Source: a virus. From it: a DNA stretch of 22,511 nucleotides. The DNA lies in IMG/VR virus record IMGVR_UViG_3300047459_000095, positions 1 to 22,511 of that record; one strand, given 5' to 3'. The notes under the pieces are model-generated. The model did no database searches, was not told the origin of the DNA, and was given only the letters and a program-made list of their open reading frames with translations. Below, piece after piece: positions 4,794 through 16,297 of the stretch (position 1 is the stretch's first letter; every line of letters begins with the position of its first letter). Position numbers and translations under genes: made by a program.

Positions 4794-6965
4794 TTAAATT
4801 TCCTCTAGTGTTAATCTAGCACCATATATTCTGTTATAAGAACCTGATGGATTTATGCTTAATGTTATGTAATTACCCTCTGTTGAATTTACTGGAGTTG
4901 ATAAAGTTAACTCCGTATTAACTGTTCCACTTCCAAAACTTGCTCCATATATAGAACTCCAACTAGAAGCCTGAACAGAAAAAGCGTTTGCAACATTACC
5001 TTTTATAAATACTTTAACAAGTTTATACCCTGCTGGAATTTGTATTGAAACCATATAATAAGTATTTGAACTAGGCATCATCATATAATTCCCTGAACTA
5101 GTTAGAATACCTGATCCTGAGGTTGCACCTAAAAAGTCGTATGGAGTCAAATACCAATACTTCGCAGGGCCAGTAGCATATATACCTGTACCAATATTAT
5201 CACCTTTTAGTTTCCCTTTTATATCACCATAAGAGCCACTAAAAGATGAGTCTATGTTTGCACAAGAAAGTGTGTTGTTTGTAGGGCTATACGTAAAAGA
5301 GGACTCTCCATCAAAACCACCTAAACTATCGTTAAACTGAACAGAGTAGTTTGGGCCTCCCGGACTTCCACCCCCAGTTCCTGCTGCTTGCTCGTACAAC
5401 TGACCATTACTATCAATACCGACTACGTTAGTTTGGGCTGTTGTGGGTAGGTTATTAAATTTAATAACATTAGTACCTGTATTAGAACCTACACGAAGTT
5501 CTGATGTTATTGTAAGATAAGGGGTTCCAGCAGGCACGTAGTTAACTAAAGTTGCCCCGGCTAAATCACCCGTGGCTTGGTCTGCAAATTGTACGTTATA
5601 AGCCGACCCTGCCGCTTTCCCTGTGTTTGCTTGTACAAATTCAGTCGTAGCTACCTTAGTAGAATTATCTCCTACTGCTTGGGTATTAGCATCACAATCC
5701 GTTAATGTTTTATTTGTGAGAGTTTGTGTATCTGTTAATTGTACTATGTTAGCATTTGTTATAGACGCAATCTTAGTAGCGGTAGCCGCATTACCTGTAG
5801 TATCTTGGTCTAATGTAGGGAAAGTACAATTAGTTAAGTCCCCACTTGAGGGAGTACCTAAAGTAGGTGTGGTTAACGTAGGTGATGTTAATGTTTTGTT
5901 TGTTAAAGTTTGTGTGTCTGTTAGTTGAACTATATTAGCATTTGTTATACTAGCTATCTTAGTGGCAGTATCTGCGTTTCCTGTTACGTTACCTGTTACG
6001 TTACCAACTACTGCTGCGTTTAATTGAGGTGTACTTACATCTAATATAGTTGTGCCTTGTACGTTAGTAACATCCGCAGTAATTGTTGCATCTGCACCAG
6101 TAGTTCCATTGTCTAAAATCTTTGAGGAACTATTAGAAGCGTAAATATCACCAACAAATTTGTCTGCATTCATTCGGGTAGCAGTCAATGACCCTATGTT
6201 AGGTTGAAATTTTAGCGAACTCTTAGTTTGTAAACTTGCATCTGCGTCATTAAGGTTCGTTACAAAAGGTATATATTTACTAGTTGAAGCGGTACTACTG
6301 GCAACTTTTACTTTATCCGCAATATCAGCAGTACCTGTCAAGTCCCCAGTTACATCCCCTGTAAATGTAGCGTCTGTACCATCAGTTCCGTTTTCTAAAA
6401 CCTTGCTAGTACCATCACTAGAATATATATCACCATCGATTACTCCTGATACCTCTATGTTTGGTGTTGTTAGTTTTGTTGTGGAAATATCATATGTGAA
6501 AGATGAGTCACCATCTAATCTACCATTTGTGTTAAACTGAACATCTGTGTTATTACCGGCTGCATAAGTAGAATCACCTTGATTATACCCCGGAGCTGAA
6601 ACAAGCGATCCGGGAGGGAAACCAAAATATGTGTCTACAACTTGGTCACCCGGTTGATTTCCGTCTACATATATAACTATAGAAGTAGCCCCTTTTGGGA
6701 TTGTTGCTTTTTCATTTCTTATAGTTACTGCAAAAGAGCCGTCAGGATGAGTGAGTGTAAATATAGAATCATTAGGGATAGGGCCTAATAAACCCGGACT
6801 AGCTATGCTTATAGTTGTAAACGTGGTAGCCCCATCTATTTCAACATCAACTTGACCAAAGGCATCGGTTAAAAGAAAATTATTAAATCTTTCGTGTAAA
6901 CCTTGTAGACCATTATTAATACTATCTAAATCGTTTTCAAGTAATTGAATTTTATCTACCGCCAT
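4794..6965 (-). CDS. Repetitive tail fibre / receptor-binding-like structural protein
   Basis: A 723-residue protein with a modular, Thr/Ser/Asn/Gly-rich composition typical of trimeric phage fibres. The N-terminus (1-35) is a coiled-coil-like helix (LLENDLDSINNGLQGL), then a beta domain (40-125). Repeated modules follow: VQFN..G..DG(D/E)SSFTY at about 142-158 and again near 545, GDIY.S..SK.L.NGT..DAT at 178-200 and 272-294, and an exact 28-residue repeat at 333-360 and 395-422. The last about 130 residues are non-repetitive and aromatic-rich (YWYLTPYDF, YYMVSIQIPAGYK) and could be the receptor-binding tip. It directly follows the 970-residue tail-tip gene, 2 bases apart. Which receptor it binds is not visible. 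Confidence 0.75.
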   Translation of the reverse strand: MAVDKIQLLENDLDSINNGLQGLHERFNNFLLTDAFGQVDVEIDGATTFTTISIASPGLLGPIPNDSIFTLTHPDGSFAVTIRNEKATIPKGATSIVIYVDGNQPGDQVVDTYFGFPPGSLVSAPGYNQGDSTYAAGNNTDVQFNTNGRLDGDSSFTYDISTTKLTTPNIEVSGVIDGDIYSSDGTSKVLENGTDGTDATFTGDVTGDLTGTADIADKVKVASSTASTSKYIPFVTNLNDADASLQTKSSLKFQPNIGSLTATRMNADKFVGDIYASNSSSKILDNGTTGADATITADVTNVQGTTILDVSTPQLNAAVVGNVTGNVTGNADTATKIASITNANIVQLTDTQTLTNKTLTSPTLTTPTLGTPSSGDLTNCTFPTLDQDTTGNAATATKIASITNANIVQLTDTQTLTNKTLTDCDANTQAVGDNSTKVATTEFVQANTGKAAGSAYNVQFADQATGDLAGATLVNYVPAGTPYLTITSELRVGSNTGTNVIKFNNLPTTAQTNVVGIDSNGQLYEQAAGTGGGSPGGPNYSVQFNDSLGGFDGESSFTYSPTNNTLSCANIDSSFSGSYGDIKGKLKGDNIGTGIYATGPAKYWYLTPYDFLGATSGSGILTSSGNYMMMPSSNTYYMVSIQIPAGYKLVKVFIKGNVANAFSVQASSWSSIYGASFGSGTVNTELTLSTPVNSTEGNYITLSINPSGSYNRIYGARLTLEEI
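5700..5783 (-). repeat. Second copy of a 28-residue coding repeat in the fibre gene
   Basis: Codes residues 395-422 (start TATKIASITN, end TNKTLT), identical in protein to the copy at 5886-5969 but different at 14 of 84 bases. Confidence 0.9.
5886..5969 (-). repeat. First copy of a 28-residue coding repeat in the fibre gene
   Basis: Codes residues 333-360, identical in protein to the copy at 5700-5783. All 14 base differences between the copies are silent, including a TCT/AGT serine pair and a CTC/TTA leucine pair. Confidence 0.9.
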
Positions 6966-6967
6966 AA

Positions 6968-9880
6968 TTAATCATTTTTTAATCTATACCATTCGCCATC
7001 CATTGTCATACTTCTTAACTTTAGTGTCCCACCTAAAAAAGCAAAATTCTCATAAATACCATTATTATTAATTGAATACCTTACTACACTTAGTGGACTT
7101 ATATCCTTACTAAATATAGAAGCCTGTAATATTTTTAAAGGGCTTTTTTGCAAATCTAGAAATTGGTGTGCTAATAATTGTGTAAAAGGTTTAGAAATTG
7201 TTGATCCACTATAAGGGTATATATCTGCCACTATAGGGTCGTTATTTTCATCAACTATAGAAAATTGAGGGTCAGAGGTCGTTACACCTATTTTTACATC
7301 ACCCAAATCTATGTTCTCAGTATTATTAGAAGTTTCATTGTATTCTGTAACTCTAAATTCATTACTAACTAAAGAATTTGTTTGTTCTGCCTCTAATGTT
7401 ATAGATTGAGCTTTAGCGATTCTATTTATATAACTACTAACAAATATTTCTCGTTGTCCGCCGCCACCGCCGGCCCTCCATTCGTAATATCTAACTAAAG
7501 GAATCACCTTTATAAATAAACTCATTGTTTCATCAACCGCAGGTATTTTAGTTTTAAACTTTAAACTAGATGATGAATACATTTTAGGGTTTGGAGGGGG
7601 AGTGTAAAATCTAGTGGCTATATCCTCTCTTTTAAGGGTTATAATGTCACCTTCTTTAGGATCTCTCCAACTAGAGTTTTCTAAAGCACCAGTAACAGTA
7701 GACTCGTTAAAATCTTTATCATATATAGCACTAGTTACATTCCTGCCCTTTCCTCTAGTAAGCACAAATCCACTATTTTGATATTGTGATTGCCATTCTA
7801 ACTCACCATCAGGATTCATTCTTAACCATTCTGTTTTTGTACCTGATACTGCTTTTATAACGACCTGTGATTGAAATCTAAAAATTCCCGGTGCTATTGT
7901 CCAACCATTCCCTTTACTTATATCACTAGCATAAAATTCCTCTTCGTAAGTATTAAACCATTTTAATGTGTATTCTGTGTCCGCAGTAATTTGCCCCCCA
8001 TAAACATAAAAGTCATTTATTGGTCTAGGGGACACCCAAGGCTTTTCTGTTATGTCTTGACCCCCCGATATGTTAAAAGCGTCACTTACACCTGTGTAGG
8101 TTGCCAAAACTGAGTTTAGACTTGGTTCATAAGTAAATGAAGAACCTGCAAGTAATACGTGGTTTTGTTGGTCTATAGTTACAGTTAAATCATAGTCAGA
8201 CTTGTTCTGGCTTGAGGAAATGTCCGAAGTATGGTCATATTGGTAGTATGAAACTGCCGCAGGATCTCTTTCTAAATTGTTGGGTTGTGTGAACCACAAT
8301 TGACCTTTCCATTGAAAACCTAGTAAATTAAATATTTTAAGAGCTTCATTAAATGCGTCTTGCTCTTTATACTCTAAAGGAAAATTAGTGTTACTAGCAA
8401 AAGCACCTTTACAAATATAAAACTGGTCTGCCGTAGCATAGCCGGCGTGCATTGCCGGTACTTCCCATTCCATATTAACATTCATATATCTAACGTATTT
8501 GCCAAATACTGTATCTTCCGCAGTAGAACATCTAACTTGACCTATATCTCCAACCCAATCCGTTGTATAAAAATGAAGTCCATTTGGCTCTCCGTTCAAA
8601 CCAAAATTGTCTTTTTGCTCCCACGTAAAATCAAAATTTTTATAGTCATTGTTAGGATTGTTGGTAGTGTTAACAGAAGCAATCTGCGTTGAATTACCAC
8701 CTCCATCTTTTACATAAAGAGTCCCTGATGTTGTTCTTGTATTAAAGGCTACATTGTATTTTTTTCCGGGTATTAAAGTGCTTCCATCCATAGACATAGG
8801 ACTCCTAGCTCCCGGATTTGTAGCCCCATCTATATAAAGCCTACCTAATGTAACTGTGTCTGCTTCGGACGTATACCAATTTGATTTATCTTGGTCAAAA
8901 TAACCATTCACCACTAAATTAACATTACCTAAATTCATAGCATTAGGGTAAGAACTCAAAATATTTGATAAGCGGTAATTTATTTTCTTTTGGTCGGGGC
9001 TATCAAATTCAATAAATTGTTTATCCTTAAACCTTCCGTAAGAATCGTTTGCAGTTAATGTTACTCTGTAGGGAAATGAGGTGTTTTCTATTACATCAAA
9101 AGATGGTTGCATATACCCTTTCCATATAGTCGATACATAATATTGAACAGGGTCTTTAGCTACCTCTACAATGTACTTTTGGGATGTACCATCTAGCAAA
9201 TCGTGAATAAAATTCTCATCAAGATAATTTGTTATATTTAAGTGAAGTTTGAGTTCTGATGCTAAAAAATTCCTTTCCCTAGTAGCCCCTTGGCCATTCC
9301 AAGTTATTTCAACACCTTCTCCTGTAAAATCAAGTCGTGATGTTGCCGGAATATTTCCGTGAGCCTCAGGATCGTTTATTGAGGGCGGTAGGGTAATAGT
9401 AGCATCGTATACAACAACAGTTGAGTCATTTCCCTGACCATCTGTGTTAATCAATTCAAATGAAGGAAATCCTGAAACTACAGTCCCCATATTATAACCA
9501 ATGTTAAAAATACCATCTTTATAAGCACCTGAATTGCCGCTAATATTTTGCCAAGAACCACCTTTCAGTCGGAATCGTATAGTGTCATTTTCTTTAAGGT
9601 CTAATTTTATTACAACTTTGTAAAGTTGATTTGACACTATTGGGTTGATAGTTTGACTTGCCAAATTTGCATAACCTGTCCCATCTTCATTAAGAATGTA
9701 AGACTCAGAACCCTCCCTAAAAGAAGCGTTTTGTGTTGTCCAGTAAGTTGACCTATTAAAGGATGTGTCAAAATTAGTTAGAAAATTAAAATATCCTAAT
9801 TTTTTTATAGTAACACGTACAAATTCTTCTTTTTCGTTTTTAAACGACCAACTCTTAAAAACTCCGTATATTGCCTCCAT
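6968..9880 (-). CDS. Large tail-tip (baseplate hub / Tal-like) protein with two inserted CBM-like domains
   Basis: A 970-residue protein encoded directly after the tape measure, where distal-tail and hub proteins sit. The host scaffold resembles Bacteroidota phage tail proteins: MEAIYGVFKSWSF...FVRVTIKKL (1-29), then ATSRLDFTGEGVEITWNG (179-196), LLDGTSQKYIVEV (228-240), STIWKGYMQPSFDV (250-263) and YRVTLTANDSYGRFKD (271-286). It ends with LLAHQFLDLQ and a TLKLRSMTMDGEWYRL terminus. Two segments interrupt it: about 31-166 and about 318-455. The second begins NLVVNGYFDQDKSNW and has a strand order like family 4/9 carbohydrate-binding modules. A GAGGGGGQ linker lies late in the chain. The tail-tip role is inferred from order and scaffold similarity. 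Confidence 0.7.
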   Translation of the reverse strand: MEAIYGVFKSWSFKNEKEEFVRVTIKKLGYFNFLTNFDTSFNRSTYWTTQNASFREGSESYILNEDGTGYANLASQTINPIVSNQLYKVVIKLDLKENDTIRFRLKGGSWQNISGNSGAYKDGIFNIGYNMGTVVSGFPSFELINTDGQGNDSTVVVYDATITLPPSINDPEAHGNIPATSRLDFTGEGVEITWNGQGATRERNFLASELKLHLNITNYLDENFIHDLLDGTSQKYIVEVAKDPVQYYVSTIWKGYMQPSFDVIENTSFPYRVTLTANDSYGRFKDKQFIEFDSPDQKKINYRLSNILSSYPNAMNLGNVNLVVNGYFDQDKSNWYTSEADTVTLGRLYIDGATNPGARSPMSMDGSTLIPGKKYNVAFNTRTTSGTLYVKDGGGNSTQIASVNTTNNPNNDYKNFDFTWEQKDNFGLNGEPNGLHFYTTDWVGDIGQVRCSTAEDTVFGKYVRYMNVNMEWEVPAMHAGYATADQFYICKGAFASNTNFPLEYKEQDAFNEALKIFNLLGFQWKGQLWFTQPNNLERDPAAVSYYQYDHTSDISSSQNKSDYDLTVTIDQQNHVLLAGSSFTYEPSLNSVLATYTGVSDAFNISGGQDITEKPWVSPRPINDFYVYGGQITADTEYTLKWFNTYEEEFYASDISKGNGWTIAPGIFRFQSQVVIKAVSGTKTEWLRMNPDGELEWQSQYQNSGFVLTRGKGRNVTSAIYDKDFNESTVTGALENSSWRDPKEGDIITLKREDIATRFYTPPPNPKMYSSSSLKFKTKIPAVDETMSLFIKVIPLVRYYEWRAGGGGGQREIFVSSYINRIAKAQSITLEAEQTNSLVSNEFRVTEYNETSNNTENIDLGDVKIGVTTSDPQFSIVDENNDPIVADIYPYSGSTISKPFTQLLAHQFLDLQKSPLKILQASIFSKDISPLSVVRYSINNNGIYENFAFLGGTLKLRSMTMDGEWYRLKND
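8516..8929 (-). other. Second inserted CBM-like domain in the tail-tip protein
   Basis: Codes about residues 318-455. It shows NLVVNGYFDQDKSNW, GRLYIDGA, LIPGKKYNVAFNTRT and YVKDGG, closely parallel to the domain in the tail terminator (ENGQFESNINGW, LEIST, IESGKSYICEYSW). Confidence 0.62.
9383..9790 (-). other. First inserted CBM-like domain in the tail-tip protein
   Basis: Codes about residues 31-166. It shows NFDTSFNRSTYWT, a beta-rich middle with QLYKVVIKLDL, and a closing strand VVVYDATITL. Similarity to the other two inserted domains is weaker, so the call rests on layout and position between conserved scaffold parts. Confidence 0.5.
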
Positions 9881-12022
9881 TTACCTTTTGTTTTTTCTTC
9901 TATTCGCTCTATCAAAAACTATCAATAAATCATCACCTGTTATTCTTACATCAGGTATAACAGTACCGCCTCCACCTAAAGCGTGGTTAGGTATTATTGT
10001 TCCGCTTGATCCAGGAACAAATAACTCAGGGCCTCTTTCTCCCACAAGACTCATTTTACCTGTAGGTGGTCGACCTCCATCGGCAAAAGCTCCGCCCATC
10101 ATTTGACCTAAAATATCTTTGAATCCACTTGCTCCATCTCCACCGAATCCACCAATACTTGAAAGTCCAGTCATTTTAAGCAAAGCAGATAATATCAATG
10201 CTTTTACAATCATCTTTAGCATCATCTTTCCTAATTCTATAAAGATGTTACCTAGACCTTCAAATAAATTTTCTCCACTAACTATTACGTCAGCAAATGA
10301 ATCTGCAAAAGATAACGCAGTCTGTTCTCCAAACTCCTTAATAGCGTTATTAAATCTTTGTGTAGCTGCTTTAGCTGACTCTAAATCTGCTAAGTATTGT
10401 TTATATTCGTCTTGGAAGTCAAATGGTGATGCTACGAATTCTTTTTTCTCTTCTCCTGTAGATTCAGAAGAACCTAAACTAGGCATACCTGAGTCAGTTC
10501 CACCAAATAAATTAGGGAGTTTTATATCAAGATTATCTAAACCACCTTTGATAGAATCGGTTAGTGATCCAAATTCGTGTTTATATTCTTTAGTCTCTTC
10601 TTTAGCGTTTTCTATATCTTCTTTCCAACCTGCAAATGGATTTATTGCCTGTGACTTTATTCCTATAAAGTCGTATAACTTTTGAAATCCTTGTACAAAT
10701 TTATCAAATGGGGTGAGTAGTATTTGTATAATACTAAGCATAGTGTTTTTCCACCAACTCACATCGGTAAATCTTTCCCTAAATGCTTCCCAATTGTCTA
10801 GTATGTATTTTATTGCTATTGGAACTAAGGCTAGAGCTGCTATAATCAATCCTATAGGACTTGTAAGGGCGGCTAAGACTGTTCCTAATCCAATGTATGC
10901 AGCACTAAGACCGGCTACAACAAGTAACATAGGCCCTAGTAAAGCGGCTAAAGTTCCTATTACAACTATTGTCTTTTGTGTGTTTTCGTCTAACTTAGCA
11001 AATTTTCCTGCCAAGGTTGTTATACCCTCTATTAAGGGTGTAATCATATCTGAGATAAGAGCTCCTAATTCTAATTTTAAACCCTCTATAGCCGACTCCA
11101 TCTTTTTTACTTTAGCAAAGGATGTTTGTCCCATTGCCGTAGCCATCTCGTCTAGTCTGCCGGTGTTAGTTTTGTATTCTTCAGTAAGTTCAGCTAACTT
11201 ATCTTTATTTTGAGATAATATTAATAACTGGTTAGCTGCGGTAACACCTACTAATTCTTGTGCCTCGTTAAGGGTCATACTACCACTAGCAAGGTCATCT
11301 AGTGTTTCCTTGAATGGGATTCCCTCCTCATTCATTTTCATAAACACTTTCCTTAGACCTGTACCTGCCTTGGATGCTTTGATACCATTATCCATAAGGA
11401 CACCCATCATTGAAGACAACTCTTCTATATCTACACCTACTGCGTTGGCTGAAGCTCCTGCGTGACCGAAAGCAGTAGAAAATGTACTAAGTTGTATAGA
11501 TGAATTTGCAGCAGCACTAGCTAGTGTATTAGCTACTCTAGCCGAATCTGTACTTTCTAGGTTAAAGGCATTTAAAGATGATGCCACAGTATTAGCAGCT
11601 AAAGATAAATCTTCTCCAGTTGCAAGGGCTAAGTCTAAGATAGACCCTTCCATCTCTTTAATGGCGGTAGGGTCGAAACCTTTACGACCTAATGTTAATT
11701 GTAAATCAGAGACTTGAGCAGCGGTAAATTGTGTAGTTGCACCTAATCGTTTGGCTTCCGAAGTAAGCATTTTCATCTCTTCGGCAGTAGCCCCGGTGAC
11801 AGTCATCACCTTAGTCATACTATTCTCAAACTGAGAGAATGTATCAAAGGCAGATTTACCTAAAGCCGTTAAAGGAGCTGAGACACCAAAAGATAACGTA
11901 GAACCTACTCTAGCTGCATTTGAAGCAAAAGACTTTAAAGACTTATTAGCCTTACCTAAACCTGCCTCTAAGCCCTTTATATTGGCTGCTACAATTATCG
12001 ATATAGTCTTTAATGAACCCAT
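9881..12022 (-). CDS. Tail tape measure protein
   Basis: A 713-residue tape measure protein, which sets tail length and forms the tail core before ejection. The N-terminal half matches the TP901-1-type core: helical repeats with GLGKANKSLKSFA, FDTFSQFENSMTKVMTVTGA, LTSEAKRLGATTQFTAAQVS, ALATGEDLSLAANTVAS and LMDNGIKASKAGTGLRKVF (about 20-230). A hydrophobic region at about 345-410 (GTLAALLGPMLLVVAGLSAA) is the usual membrane-active segment. The C-terminus has the common phage ending MSLVGERGPELFVPGSSGTI. The gene abuts the tail-tip gene (stop and ATG adjacent) and follows the chaperone pair. At about 1.5 angstroms per residue the tail would be near 105 nm, which is an estimate only. Confidence 0.93.
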   Translation of the reverse strand: MGSLKTISIIVAANIKGLEAGLGKANKSLKSFASNAARVGSTLSFGVSAPLTALGKSAFDTFSQFENSMTKVMTVTGATAEEMKMLTSEAKRLGATTQFTAAQVSDLQLTLGRKGFDPTAIKEMEGSILDLALATGEDLSLAANTVASSLNAFNLESTDSARVANTLASAAANSSIQLSTFSTAFGHAGASANAVGVDIEELSSMMGVLMDNGIKASKAGTGLRKVFMKMNEEGIPFKETLDDLASGSMTLNEAQELVGVTAANQLLILSQNKDKLAELTEEYKTNTGRLDEMATAMGQTSFAKVKKMESAIEGLKLELGALISDMITPLIEGITTLAGKFAKLDENTQKTIVVIGTLAALLGPMLLVVAGLSAAYIGLGTVLAALTSPIGLIIAALALVPIAIKYILDNWEAFRERFTDVSWWKNTMLSIIQILLTPFDKFVQGFQKLYDFIGIKSQAINPFAGWKEDIENAKEETKEYKHEFGSLTDSIKGGLDNLDIKLPNLFGGTDSGMPSLGSSESTGEEKKEFVASPFDFQDEYKQYLADLESAKAATQRFNNAIKEFGEQTALSFADSFADVIVSGENLFEGLGNIFIELGKMMLKMIVKALILSALLKMTGLSSIGGFGGDGASGFKDILGQMMGGAFADGGRPPTGKMSLVGERGPELFVPGSSGTIIPNHALGGGGTVIPDVRITGDDLLIVFDRANRRKNKR

Positions 12023-12698: not shown

Positions 12699-13520
12699 TT
12701 AAACTTCTTGTCGTGTTAAAGTCTCTGTCCCTTGGAATGTAACAGAGAAAGTTGCATTCTCTTCTACACCTGCATCCATTGAGATGCTAGTTACCTTTAC
12801 ATTACCTGCGAAAGCTATATCTGTGCCATTTGTAAATCTTTCACTAAACCTAACAAATACAGAATCACCAGTTTTTAAATCGTCTAATTGGTTTTGGAAA
12901 TCTTCGGCTTGAGTAAAATCTTGCAAAGCATCTGTAGTTATTTCAAATGATTTTAATCCTGCAAGATGTTCTGCTGCCCCACTAGAGTCTTTATTTGTAA
13001 CATCTCTAGTTTCTCTATTTACGCTTAGTGATGCAGATGTACTATAGCCTATTGGAACATAAGTATTATTAGTTTCTCCATCTTGAGTAACAGTAAAATC
13101 TATATGTTCGTAATCTATAATCGCAGCATTTGCCACATCTTGTGGTACAATTTCTACTACATCAGCTACCTCTCCTAAATAGGAGAAAGTAATGGTTAGT
13201 GTTGATTGAGCATTTGCTTGGTCGCTTACAGGGGTTAATGTAACTCCACTAGATGGCCAGTTAGGCAAACCCATCAATGTGTTTCTAATTGCTAGTGCAT
13301 TTCTATAGCCCTGTGTATCGAAGGTGTTTATAGTTATATCAAAATCAGGTAATTTTACACCACTCGAATCATAAAGGTTTTTTACAGTTAAGGCTGCGTT
13401 GCTTTGACCAGATGCTTGTTTAATGGCATCATTACCATCAAAAAATATTTCCGTAATTTGAGCTTGGTCTGCCGGTGACTTTTTATAAACTAATAAATCC
13501 GATGCGTTTTTAATTGCCAT
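12699..13520 (-). CDS. Major tail (tube) protein, long paralogue
   Basis: A 273-residue tail tube-type protein related to TP901-1-like major tail proteins. It shares with the preceding gene the N-terminus MAIKNASDLLVY, the segment STSASLSVNRETRDVTNKDS, HLAGLKSFEITTDALQDF, and the C-terminal VTSISMDAGVEENATFSVTF. Between residues about 13 and 155 it carries an extra region absent from the short paralogue, with its own beta-type pattern (ALTVKNLYDSSGVKL, LTITFSYLGEVADVVEIVP). That region may be a surface domain on the tube or a duplicated and diverged tube domain. It lies 25 bases after the short paralogue and 16 bases before the chaperone gene. Which paralogue is the main tube subunit cannot be told from sequence. 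Confidence 0.82.
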   Translation of the reverse strand: MAIKNASDLLVYKKSPADQAQITEIFFDGNDAIKQASGQSNAALTVKNLYDSSGVKLPDFDITINTFDTQGYRNALAIRNTLMGLPNWPSSGVTLTPVSDQANAQSTLTITFSYLGEVADVVEIVPQDVANAAIIDYEHIDFTVTQDGETNNTYVPIGYSTSASLSVNRETRDVTNKDSSGAAEHLAGLKSFEITTDALQDFTQAEDFQNQLDDLKTGDSVFVRFSERFTNGTDIAFAGNVKVTSISMDAGVEENATFSVTFQGTETLTRQEV

Positions 13521-13545: not shown

Positions 13546-13956
13546 CTATGTTAAGTCTCCTGTTCCTTGTAGAGTTAAAGAGTAAGTAGCGTTTTCTTCT
13601 ACACCTGCGTCTACACTACACGAAGTGATGTAAGCATCTCCTGAGTAAGTTTGACCAGCAGTACCAAAGCTAACTGTTACCTTTGCAGTTTCAGCATCAG
13701 CTACTAACATTTGTGTGATTAAAGCGTCAACATTATTGTTACCTGTAAAATCTACAAACCCATCTCCTGAGATTTCCCAAGATTTAAGCCCTGCTAGAGA
13801 TGTAGACCATCCCTCACTTGATTTTGTAGTAGAATCTCTCATCTCTCTTGAGATAGATAGTGATGCAGAAGTTGCGTGTAGAAGTACGTTTGAAGGTGTA
13901 CCACCTGCTCCATTTACTAATTTAACAACTACGTCTGTTGCATTTTCTATTGCCAT
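13546..13956 (-). CDS. Major tail (tube) protein, short paralogue
   Basis: A 136-residue protein with the size and pattern of a TP901-1-type major tail protein: MAIENATDVVVKLV, TSASLSISREMRDSTTKSSE, SLAGLKSWEISGDGFVDF and CSVDAGVEENATYSLTLQGT. The four-residue core AGLK, the segment RE(M/T)RD, and DAGVEENAT recur in the next gene, showing a tandem duplication. It starts 6 bases after the tail terminator gene. At this size it equals one tube domain. Both paralogues could be in the virion, or one could cap or start the tube. Confidence 0.85.
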   Translation of the reverse strand: MAIENATDVVVKLVNGAGGTPSNVLLHATSASLSISREMRDSTTKSSEGWSTSLAGLKSWEISGDGFVDFTGNNNVDALITQMLVADAETAKVTVSFGTAGQTYSGDAYITSCSVDAGVEENATYSLTLQGTGDLT

Positions 13957-13962
13957 TTTATT

Positions 13963-14796
13963 TTAGTTTTTAATTATTAAACAATTGAAAGTTAAGTTTT
14001 TGTAGAACTTTTCGGGAGTCTTAAAATATTCGTCATCTAGATTTTCAAATCTAAACTTAGCAGTATAAGACTGCCCATCTTCGGTATATATTACCTCGTA
14101 CAAATCTAAAGCGTCTACAACTGCTTTAGCTTGATTATATGTCGTTTTATATTTATCAGCAAAACAAGATATGTTTACTGAAACATCGCAAGAATTTAAA
14201 GAACTACCCTTTGACATAAAATTAGATACGTTTCTAATCTCATAAGTTGTCGCAGGGTATTCTATTCCTTGTGGTATTATCACAGGGAAAACACCAAGAT
14301 TTGTAACTTCTTTTACTGTTATGTAGTTTAACCTACCTTCTGAGTATTGAACCTCACTCCAGTTGTTGAAATGCAAGAAAACATACCCATTTACTGAAGA
14401 GGTAAACGTAAAACTAGTTGTACCTTGGTCAACATTATTTCTAGGGCCTTCATATATATTATTTGTTAAATATGCAGAACCTATATCTACACTTGTTGGA
14501 AATTCTGAATCCCAAGAGTATTCACATATATAGCTTTTACCTGATTCAATAAGAATTGGTGCGTAGGCTGAAGCGTAATTCCCAGTACCACCCAAAGTGC
14601 TTATTTCTAAGGCTTGTCTTGAAGCATCCCAAGTTTTACCTCTAGGAGGTGATGGGGAAGTAAACCATCCATTTATATTAGACTCAAATTGACCATTTTC
14701 AACTAATTCAGAACCAAATGTTGATCCATTAGCTACGTTAAAAACAAAGCTGCCGGCTAATCTGTCAAATATCTTTTTACCTATTACTGCAAACAT
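13963..14796 (-). CDS. Tail terminator / completion protein (DUF3168-like) with an inserted CBM-like domain
   Basis: The two ends form a DUF3168-type tail completion protein: MFAVIGKKIFDRLAGSF (1-17) and then GVFPVIIPQGIEYPATTYEI (168-187), SVNISCFADKYKTTYNQAKA (206-225) and a C-terminal strand pair. Together they make about 135 residues, the usual length for this family, which caps the tail at the head-tail joint. Between them, about residues 25-166, lies a foreign domain that starts SELVENGQFESNINGWF, passes LIESGKSYICEYSW, and closes with LNYITVKEV, the layout of family 4/9 carbohydrate-binding jelly rolls. The insertion is exactly at the loop before the FPVIIPQG strand. It abuts the gp10-like gene upstream with no gap. 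Confidence 0.8.
   Translation of the reverse strand: MFAVIGKKIFDRLAGSFVFNVANGSTFGSELVENGQFESNINGWFTSPSPPRGKTWDASRQALEISTLGGTGNYASAYAPILIESGKSYICEYSWDSEFPTSVDIGSAYLTNNIYEGPRNNVDQGTTSFTFTSSVNGYVFLHFNNWSEVQYSEGRLNYITVKEVTNLGVFPVIIPQGIEYPATTYEIRNVSNFMSKGSSLNSCDVSVNISCFADKYKTTYNQAKAVVDALDLYEVIYTEDGQSYTAKFRFENLDDEYFKTPEKFYKNLTFNCLIIKN
14299..14724 (-). other. Inserted CBM-like domain in the tail terminator
   Basis: Codes about residues 25-166 of the tail terminator. Begins ENGQFESNINGW, has LIESGKSYICEYSW in the middle and closes with YITVKEV, the pattern of a family 4/9 carbohydrate-binding-module jelly roll. Borders are approximate. Confidence 0.65.
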
Positions 14797-15312
14797 CTAA
14801 AATCCTGCTTTTCTTATTAGCTTGTCAACTAGTTTACCTATACTTTTTTCTGCCGTAGCCGAGACATCATTCCCCATTCTATCAGCAGTTATTTTAAATA
14901 CGTTAGGAAATATTTTTACTTCACCTCCTTGAACATAACCTTCAATTTGCATAGCAGCTAAGTTTTTACTTGCCCCTTTTCTCCAATAGTGAGGGTTAAC
15001 TTTTTTAGCTAATGGCCCTACAAATAGACCGGGATTTTTTGACCTTTTTGCAGTTACTACACCTATAGTGTCTGCCGTTCTTGTTCCTTGAACATAAGTC
15101 TTTGCTTGAGTGTCATATCTCAATCCCGGATTTTTACTTTTAAACTGACTCTTATAAGCCTGTTTCATTCCTTTAGCCAACTTATTCGCAGCAGGTCGTA
15201 GAGCTCTATTTATTTGAGTTCTAGACTGTCTTGCAGTTAGACCTAATTTTTTTAATCTTTTACCAACTGACTCGACTCCTGTAACCTTTATTTCAAAGTT
15301 TTTATCAGCCAT
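14797..15312 (-). CDS. HK97 gp10-like neck protein
   Basis: A 171-residue basic protein of the HK97-gp10-like neck family. It begins with FEIKVTGVESVGKRLKKLGL and the helix RTQINRALRPAANKLAKGMK (32-51), the usual start of these proteins. It continues with TIGVVTAKRSKNPGLFVGPL and PHYWRKG, a conserved site of the family. The C-terminal helix is amphipathic and basic. It overlaps the head-closure gene by 8 bases and abuts the tail terminator gene. Together with the two genes upstream it makes a type-1 neck as in HK97 and SPP1. Confidence 0.88.
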   Translation of the reverse strand: MADKNFEIKVTGVESVGKRLKKLGLTARQSRTQINRALRPAANKLAKGMKQAYKSQFKSKNPGLRYDTQAKTYVQGTRTADTIGVVTAKRSKNPGLFVGPLAKKVNPHYWRKGASKNLAAMQIEGYVQGGEVKIFPNVFKITADRMGNDVSATAEKSIGKLVDKLIRKAGF

Positions 15313-15682
15313 TTGGATTTGTTTCTTTTAAATCTTGTTTAGTAAATATTTCTATATACTCCTTTCTTGGGTCTATTACAAAACCTAAAATTTCATAATA
15401 ATCTTGTGTCCCTTCTTCTTTTAATCTCCAGTCTGCACCCAACACTTTGGTTGTTTCACTATATCTTATAGTAAAAACAAATCTACCATAAGATTGCAAT
15501 TGGTCACCTTCAAATTTCTCCTGTATATCCCTTAGGGTTTTAACATTCTTGTTAGCCCATACTGATGTAGCTTGTGTGTAGCTTTTAGTAATACCACCAA
15601 AAGCATCAGTAGTAAATCCGGGAGCTTCTAATGCCATTTTTACATTAAAATCACCTGCTTTTATTTTACTAATAAATGCCAT
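15305..15682 (-). CDS. Head-tail joining / head closure protein
   Basis: A 125-residue protein of the phage head-tail joining family (SPP1 gp16-like). Visible features are the N-terminal strand FNVKMALEAPGFTTDAFGGI, TQATSVWANKNV, RFVFTIRYSE and the late strand DYYEILGFVIDPRKEYIEIF. These follow the family's beta-barrel order, where VWA and the pair Y-x-I-x-G are typical. It starts 3 bases after the connector gene and overlaps the gp10-like gene by 8 bases. The protein closes the portal channel after DNA packaging. Confidence 0.88.
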   Translation of the reverse strand: MAFISKIKAGDFNVKMALEAPGFTTDAFGGITKSYTQATSVWANKNVKTLRDIQEKFEGDQLQSYGRFVFTIRYSETTKVLGADWRLKEEGTQDYYEILGFVIDPRKEYIEIFTKQDLKETNPNG

Positions 15683-15685
15683 ATC

Positions 15686-16297
15686 CTAGTGGTAGCATTT
15701 ATAAGGTTGTAGTAATATTTCAGATGCCATAGGAAAACTACGTTTTCTATCTTCTCTAAAATAATACATATCACCTACAATTAACATTATAGCTTGTTTA
15801 ATAGCTTGTGGTACATCACTTACTGCATCTCCAAAACCAGTTTTAAAACGATACCAAAATACATTAGAAGCGTCTTTTTTTGTATTTCTTAAAATAGCAG
15901 GATATGTACTAGCTAAATAAACTATAGATGGGTTAGAAAAAGCATCTAAATATGCGGCATCACTACCAATTTGAAAACCATTTTCGTCAATTACATTTAC
16001 TCCGTAAGGAGAGTTACCACCTGTATGCACTACTAATGTGCAATCGGGAAAGATTAATGATGCCTTATCCACAACCTCATTAAAATACAATTCGTATTCG
16101 TGAGTAATAAAGTGTCTAGCACAATAATTCTCAGCCATTTCTGTAGCAGAGTCTATATATAAACCCAACAAAGTATCCTCATAACTTGTATCAATACGAA
16201 GATGCTCTTTAATTTCAGCAACTGTCACTACCTTAGTTGCAGGATCGTCTACTAAATATAAATCGCCTTGTTTGTTTATGTTTGGGTCTAAGTACAT
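15686..16297 (-). CDS. Head-tail connector (HK97 gp6-like adaptor)
   Basis: A 203-residue protein with the gp6-type adaptor signature VVTVAEIKEHLRIDTSYEDT followed by LLGLYIDSATEMAENYCARH (about 23-62). The C-terminal part has VPQAIKQAIMLIVGDMYYFRED (about 162-183), the conserved closing helix. It is longer than the about 100-residue HK97 gp6 because of a middle beta part with TLVVHTGGNSPYGVNVIDEN. The protein binds the portal ring and links it to head closure. It is the first gene after the capsid terminator. Confidence 0.85.
   Translation of the reverse strand: MYLDPNINKQGDLYLVDDPATKVVTVAEIKEHLRIDTSYEDTLLGLYIDSATEMAENYCARHFITHEYELYFNEVVDKASLIFPDCTLVVHTGGNSPYGVNVIDENGFQIGSDAAYLDAFSNPSIVYLASTYPAILRNTKKDASNVFWYRFKTGFGDAVSDVPQAIKQAIMLIVGDMYYFREDRKRSFPMASEILLQPYKCYH

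Follow-up and report, generated by a model that had tools for sequence, protein, structure and literature searches.

A siphophage tail terminator split by an exchangeable domain with a CBM-type fold

The terminator gene and its surroundings

The window, the whole 22.5-kb stretch of DNA that was analysed, is a virus record encoding the structural operon of a siphophage (Table 1). The operon is comprised of the genes for terminase, portal, protease, HK97-type capsid, the head-tail adaptor Ad1, the head closure protein Hc1, a 171-aa protein and the tail terminator, in this order; next, 3' of the terminator, come a pair of tail tube genes, a further two small genes and the gene for the tape measure. 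The protease, which has no family match, was named by its gene position and sequence. The terminator gene lies between the head-closure/neck genes and the tail tube gene on the minus strand and is read from an ATG at 14796 to a stop at 13963, giving 277 aa; the plus strand of the interval 13963-14796 contains many stops. The order Ad1, Hc1, 171-aa protein, terminator and tail tube is also kept in relatives. Judged by its position, the 171-aa protein may be of the gp10 type and act at the neck or in tail completion.

Several other parts of the window are of note. A 723-aa protein (4794-6965) without a family match contains repeated 'NANIVQLTDTQTLTNKTLT' segments and is probably a tail fibre. 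A gene for a C-5 cytosine DNA methylase (121-1524) runs in the direction opposite to that of the structural operon, on the plus strand. When the window is compared with the related contig L002, the tape measure (9881-12022) diverges sharply past its N-terminal part and the adjoining genes stay close, while Ad1 and Hc1 (15305-16297) have variable stretches of about 40-50% identity per 15 residues; the capsid proteins of these two closely related phages are 97% identical. A search for the host, consisting of two scans of bacterial genomes, found no close prophage, and the portal has about 40% identity or less to cultured phages among the matches listed.

Table 1. Positions in the window of the split terminator, its parts and neighbouring features
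Feature	Position	Strand	Evidence
Tail terminator with internal jelly-roll insert, 277 aa	13963..14796	-	ORF, phrog_347, ortholog alignment, AlphaFold2, fold match
Terminator residues 1-24, N-terminal helix region up to the insertion point	14725..14796	-	Helix H2-14 in model; insert-free orthologs align
Terminator residues 25-166, inserted CBM4/CBM16-like beta-sandwich	14299..14724	-	Ortholog presence/absence, models, fold matches, CBM_4_9 in homologous inserts
Terminator core, residues 167-277	13966..14298	-	phrog_347; GTA terminator Z 16.1
171-aa upstream neighbour, between head closure and terminator genes	14797..15312	-	Gene order; no family match
Head closure protein Hc1 / Phage_HCP	15305..15682	-	PF05521 E 3e-14, phrog_25 E 1.6e-8
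Head-tail adaptor Ad1	15686..16297	-	phrog_40 E 2e-19, PF05135 E 2.5e-11
Major tail (tube) protein 1	13546..13956	-	PF06199 E 1e-17, phrog_1407 E 8e-26
Major tail (tube) protein 2, N-terminal extra region variable	12699..13520	-	PF06199 E 9e-8
Module related to the insert, residues 321-412 of the 970-aa tail protein	8645..8920	-	Profile match

A terminator core and an independently folded insert

The initial annotation had proposed that the two ends of the protein join into a tail terminator of the DUF3168 type. The full 277-aa protein matches phrog_347, 'tail terminator', over residues 161-271 with an E of 4e-4; upon joining of the two flanks the match improves to E 5.6e-5 and reaches residue 6, and insert-free orthologs of 136-137 aa align over their whole length with the flanks of the window protein, which bears out the proposal. 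The family DUF3168 is now PF11367 (Tail_completion_gp17) in Pfam. The window protein does not reach PF11367 in a Pfam search and its 136-aa ortholog L040 scores below the cut-off (E 1.3e-3), but two aligned relatives, L119 and L120, score above it (E 2.6e-14 and 9.9e-6), and the flanks align with the terminator family. Sequence profiles of the core and of the insert gave nothing firm against PDB sequences. In structure, residues 1 to 276 of the model match chain 6tba_4A of the GTA particle with a Z of 16.1 and an rmsd of 2.2 over 127 residues (VIA-align, with the insert skipped). A GTA tail terminator of 134 residues, which equals the length of this chain, is named in PMC10747895. The product of the window gene is confirmed as a tail terminator, in which helix 1 and the core are split by an independent beta-sandwich.

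The AlphaFold2 model of the full protein (pLDDT 88, pTM 0.84, from an alignment of 27 sequences) has the order helical N-terminus, beta-sandwich, core. Residues 25-166 predicted alone form ten strands (pLDDT 88, pTM 0.85); whether modelled within the full protein or by itself, the insert adopts an independent beta-sandwich fold. Together with the insert-free orthologs, this rules out the insert being a part of the terminator fold. A self-splicing or intein-like element is likewise unsupported, as the insert is an in-frame beta-sandwich with CBMs as its closest folds. These comprise an arabinanase sandwich domain (Z 16.1), a porphyran-binding CBM (15.7) and CBM16 (15.1), followed by a hyaluronan-binding module (14.8), CBM4-2 (14.5) and an alginate-binding CBM (13.6). 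The best matches are CBM-type jelly rolls, and no Ig family is found among the 50 matches listed. Stig cyclases, which are not polysaccharide binders, have the same fold (Z about 13), so that the fold by itself does not prove sugar binding.

At the sequence level, the insert of the window has no Pfam match, PF02018 (CBM_4_9) included. This family is matched by 2 of the 16 aligned homologs of the insert (best E 9e-7), and the full protein of another ortholog, L037, reaches 25.4 bits, just under the cut-off of 25.9. The CBM_4_9 matches of homologous inserts and the fold matches to CBM16 and CBM4 agree with the jelly roll of CBM 4/9 type that had been predicted to lie inside the terminator.

Exchange of the insert and spread of related modules

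A collection of orthologs baited with portal, capsid and terminator contains 70 distinct complete proteins, derived from uncultured, mostly marine phages (metagenomic contigs). They fall strictly into two length classes: 56 of the 70 have 136-137 aa and no insert, and the remaining 14 have 257-280 aa and carry an insert of about 120-145 aa. The insertion point is the same in 14/14, between residue 23/24 and 'VFPVIIPQG', after the N-terminal helix and before the core. The best comparison is that of L040 (136 aa) and L041 (257 aa), whose 109-aa cores are identical. A 281-aa protein in BFVD, A0A516M9I3, aligns over the full length (E 1.6e-11) and may be another insert-bearing terminator. The insert of L041 has no match in cultured phages.

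Three contigs represent the empty and two filled states of the gene on a near-identical core: L040 has no insert, L041 has insert A and L128 has insert B, and their DNA is all but identical from AATAAGGTGTTTCC to the gene's end and on to where the next gene starts. L041 and L128 agree exactly in the 18 N-terminal codons and in the core protein, but their inserts are only 34% identical; the synonymous divergence is about 1.0 in the insert and 0.015 in the core. Similarly, the window and L002 are 93% identical in the core (dS 0.14) and 36% in the insert (dS 0.84), and L020 forms a further empty/filled pair with L011/L101. The insert of L002 clusters with that of L025, whereas its core clusters with that of the window. 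The core and insert trees are in conflict (AU test, p 0.00014 with the insert tree and p 0.012 with the core tree). The core tree requires at least three changes of the insert state, two of which are forced by well-supported branches. Point divergence of a single ancestral insert as the sole cause is contradicted by this conflict and by the synonymous divergence of the insert, which far exceeds that of the core. The insert is a swappable cassette that is present, absent or replaced on a near-identical core. It also looks constrained, since dN/dS is about 0.26 within close pairs (L101/L016 and window/L003); the pair L030/L037, with few changes, is an exception with a dN/dS near 1.

A survey of modules related to the L041 insert confirmed 333 such stretches in viral contigs. 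The 80 loci kept encode mostly long, often multi-copy, adhesin-like proteins, and the family also occurs in head-region and tail-tube proteins. In the group of phages to which the window belongs, carriers of the module are a large protein whose gene lies between those for portal and protease, the 970-aa tail protein found in the window and, with a C-terminal copy, a long version of tail tube protein 2 (561-584 aa; L063:9720-11411, L068:11560-13245), which has a further internal extra region. The portal-protease interval of three contigs (L082:4549-6738, L068:4499-6376, L047:4336-6924) encodes a protein of 590-860 aa with CBM-like and LamG-like modules, possibly a head decoration or fibre, and L063:4594-5040 a 148-aa stand-alone version. 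The long form of tail tube protein 2 with its CBM is found in one (L016) of about 11 phages with the terminator insert and, among the others, in about 26 of about 65; given this exception, the mutual exclusion of the two is a trend only and is not claimed.

A second group of phages (L284-L327, for example L287:3001-4200 and L316:3001-4956) was reached via L120 and L122. Here, C-terminal ConA-like domains are appended to the PF11367 terminator (about 152-156 aa) in 20/32 distinct proteins. Laminin_G_3 was found in all six members scanned, with two stretches in L316. The tree of this group has five state changes by parsimony, of which the well-supported branches force only one. As the second group adds its ConA-like domains at the C-terminus, terminators bear different lectin-like domains at different sites.

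A putative neck collar and its alternatives

In the explanation that we consider fairly probable, the exchangeable CBM-type jelly rolls of six siphophage terminator subunits form an outward neck collar by which the virion is weakly tethered to glycans. The terminator core would cap the tail tube as a ring, as other terminators do, with the jelly roll placed in the link that leads from helix 1 into the first strand of the core. A hexameric ring with outward inserts is suggested by the family and by the size of the channel. In solved terminators, the beta-sheet lines the channel and the helices are peripheral (PMC11784142, PMC10276861). A channel of about 40 angstrom would hardly have room for six 15-kDa sandwiches, so that the inserted domains are expected outside the ring, as a collar around the neck. 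Each of them probably binds, weakly and multivalently, a glycan of the host surface or of the polysaccharide surrounding the host; the fold points to a glycan as the putative ligand. Binding of the collar would add to reversible adsorption in an auxiliary role. The ring would stay near-constant and the insert would be gained, lost and replaced by recombination because, we propose, the glycan target varies.

The auxiliary role in reversible adsorption is suggested by three lines of evidence taken together: the exchange of inserts on a constant ring, the convergence of terminators on lectin folds, and the precedent of lactococcal phages, in which a GFP fusion of an NPS CBM binds weakly to host cells (PMC6669499). 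It counts against this reading that the neck is distant from the cell once the tail tip has docked and that most phages of the group manage without an insert. It is about an even chance that the arrangement is more general, that is, that at least two mostly marine siphophage groups have independently come to use the terminator ring as a recurrent platform for exchangeable lectin-like modules, with a six-fold, recombination-switched collar tethering the virion by its neck.

The main rival to a glycan-binding collar, in our judgement an unlikely one, is that the insert is a structural brace at the neck. The Ig-like neck domain of the marine siphophage R4C, carried by the adaptor, touches the capsid and its authors argue for local stability (PMC10276861), and a CBM fold does not by itself show binding. 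A brace on conserved partners should, however, co-vary with them, and the insert is replaced by domains of about 35% identity on a near-constant core while the capsid protein stays 97% identical; in addition, the 56 insert-free orthologs do without it. The presence of porphyran- and alginate-binding CBMs among the closest folds would fit another explanation, to which we assign a rather low probability, namely that the collar binds environmental polysaccharide (algal or particle-borne, or a biofilm matrix) instead of the host cell and keeps virions near their hosts. Such a role in holding virions near cells in complex environments has been discussed for the Ig-like capsid decoration of Peru-2 (PMC13320782), but the fold gives no specificity, as binders of xylan, hyaluronan and other ligands match about equally well.

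It is improbable that the insert travels as a neutral passenger of domain shuffling and serves no function under selection. Modules of this kind are promiscuous in phage proteins, as seen in the module survey and in the Ig-like domain literature cited in PMC13320782. A passenger is nevertheless difficult to reconcile with a dN/dS well below 1 in several pairs, an open frame in all 14 distinct insert proteins, repeated gain, loss or transfer, and the independent solution with another lectin fold in the second group. An artefact of assembly or annotation, such as a chimeric contig or a tail fibre mistaken for a terminator, is hardly conceivable. Although every sequence comes from metagenomic contigs, this explanation is already contradicted by the agreement of independent contigs: 14 distinct intact ORFs from several metagenomes have the insert at the identical position, the gene order is conserved and the model fits a solved terminator.

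The split protein resembles known tail terminators (PF11367, phrog_347, lambda gpU, SPP1 gp17 and the GTA terminator) in core fold, gene position and the family matches of its relatives, and differs from them in the extra domain that follows helix 1 and precedes the first strand of the core, or, in the second group, in the C-terminal ConA-like domains. Its insert shares with CBM4/CBM9 and CBM16 the predicted fold (Z 14-15) and the CBM_4_9 matches of homologous inserts, but those modules are attached to enzymes, whereas the insert is a part of a virion ring, and that of the window has no sequence-level match. Phage Ig-like decoration domains are likewise promiscuous accessory beta-sandwiches on virion proteins, spread by exchange, but probably belong to another fold family and are found on other carriers (capsid, tail tube, adaptor). 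The closest parallel in position are the NPS collars of lactococcal 936 and P335 phages, which also present exchangeable CBM-type domains at the neck, a location that the terminator insert would share, and whose domains are exchanged next to a near-identical N-terminus (PMC10684548). NPS is, however, a separate fibrous protein of 500-900 aa with a BppU-like N-terminal domain and a trimeric coiled coil, whereas the module described here is within the terminator ORF, one per subunit. According to the initial annotation, a glycan-binding collar on this ring is not known as a described arrangement. This needs to be narrowed: CBM neck collars are known, as a separate protein, and it is the terminator-borne version that was not found. 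Among the open-access papers searched, none was found to describe a tail terminator with a CBM or a lectin domain; one may exist elsewhere.

The usual place to look for host recognition by siphophages is the tail tip, and annotation pipelines treat the terminator gene as plain structural. From the sequences, the terminator ring appears to be an attachment site at which parts for host recognition can be changed. The natural alleles, empty, with insert A and with insert B on a near-identical core, make the function directly testable and constitute a ready metagenome marker for such phages. If the swappable neck module is indeed of the glycan-binding type, adsorption would be tunable at the head-tail joint as well.
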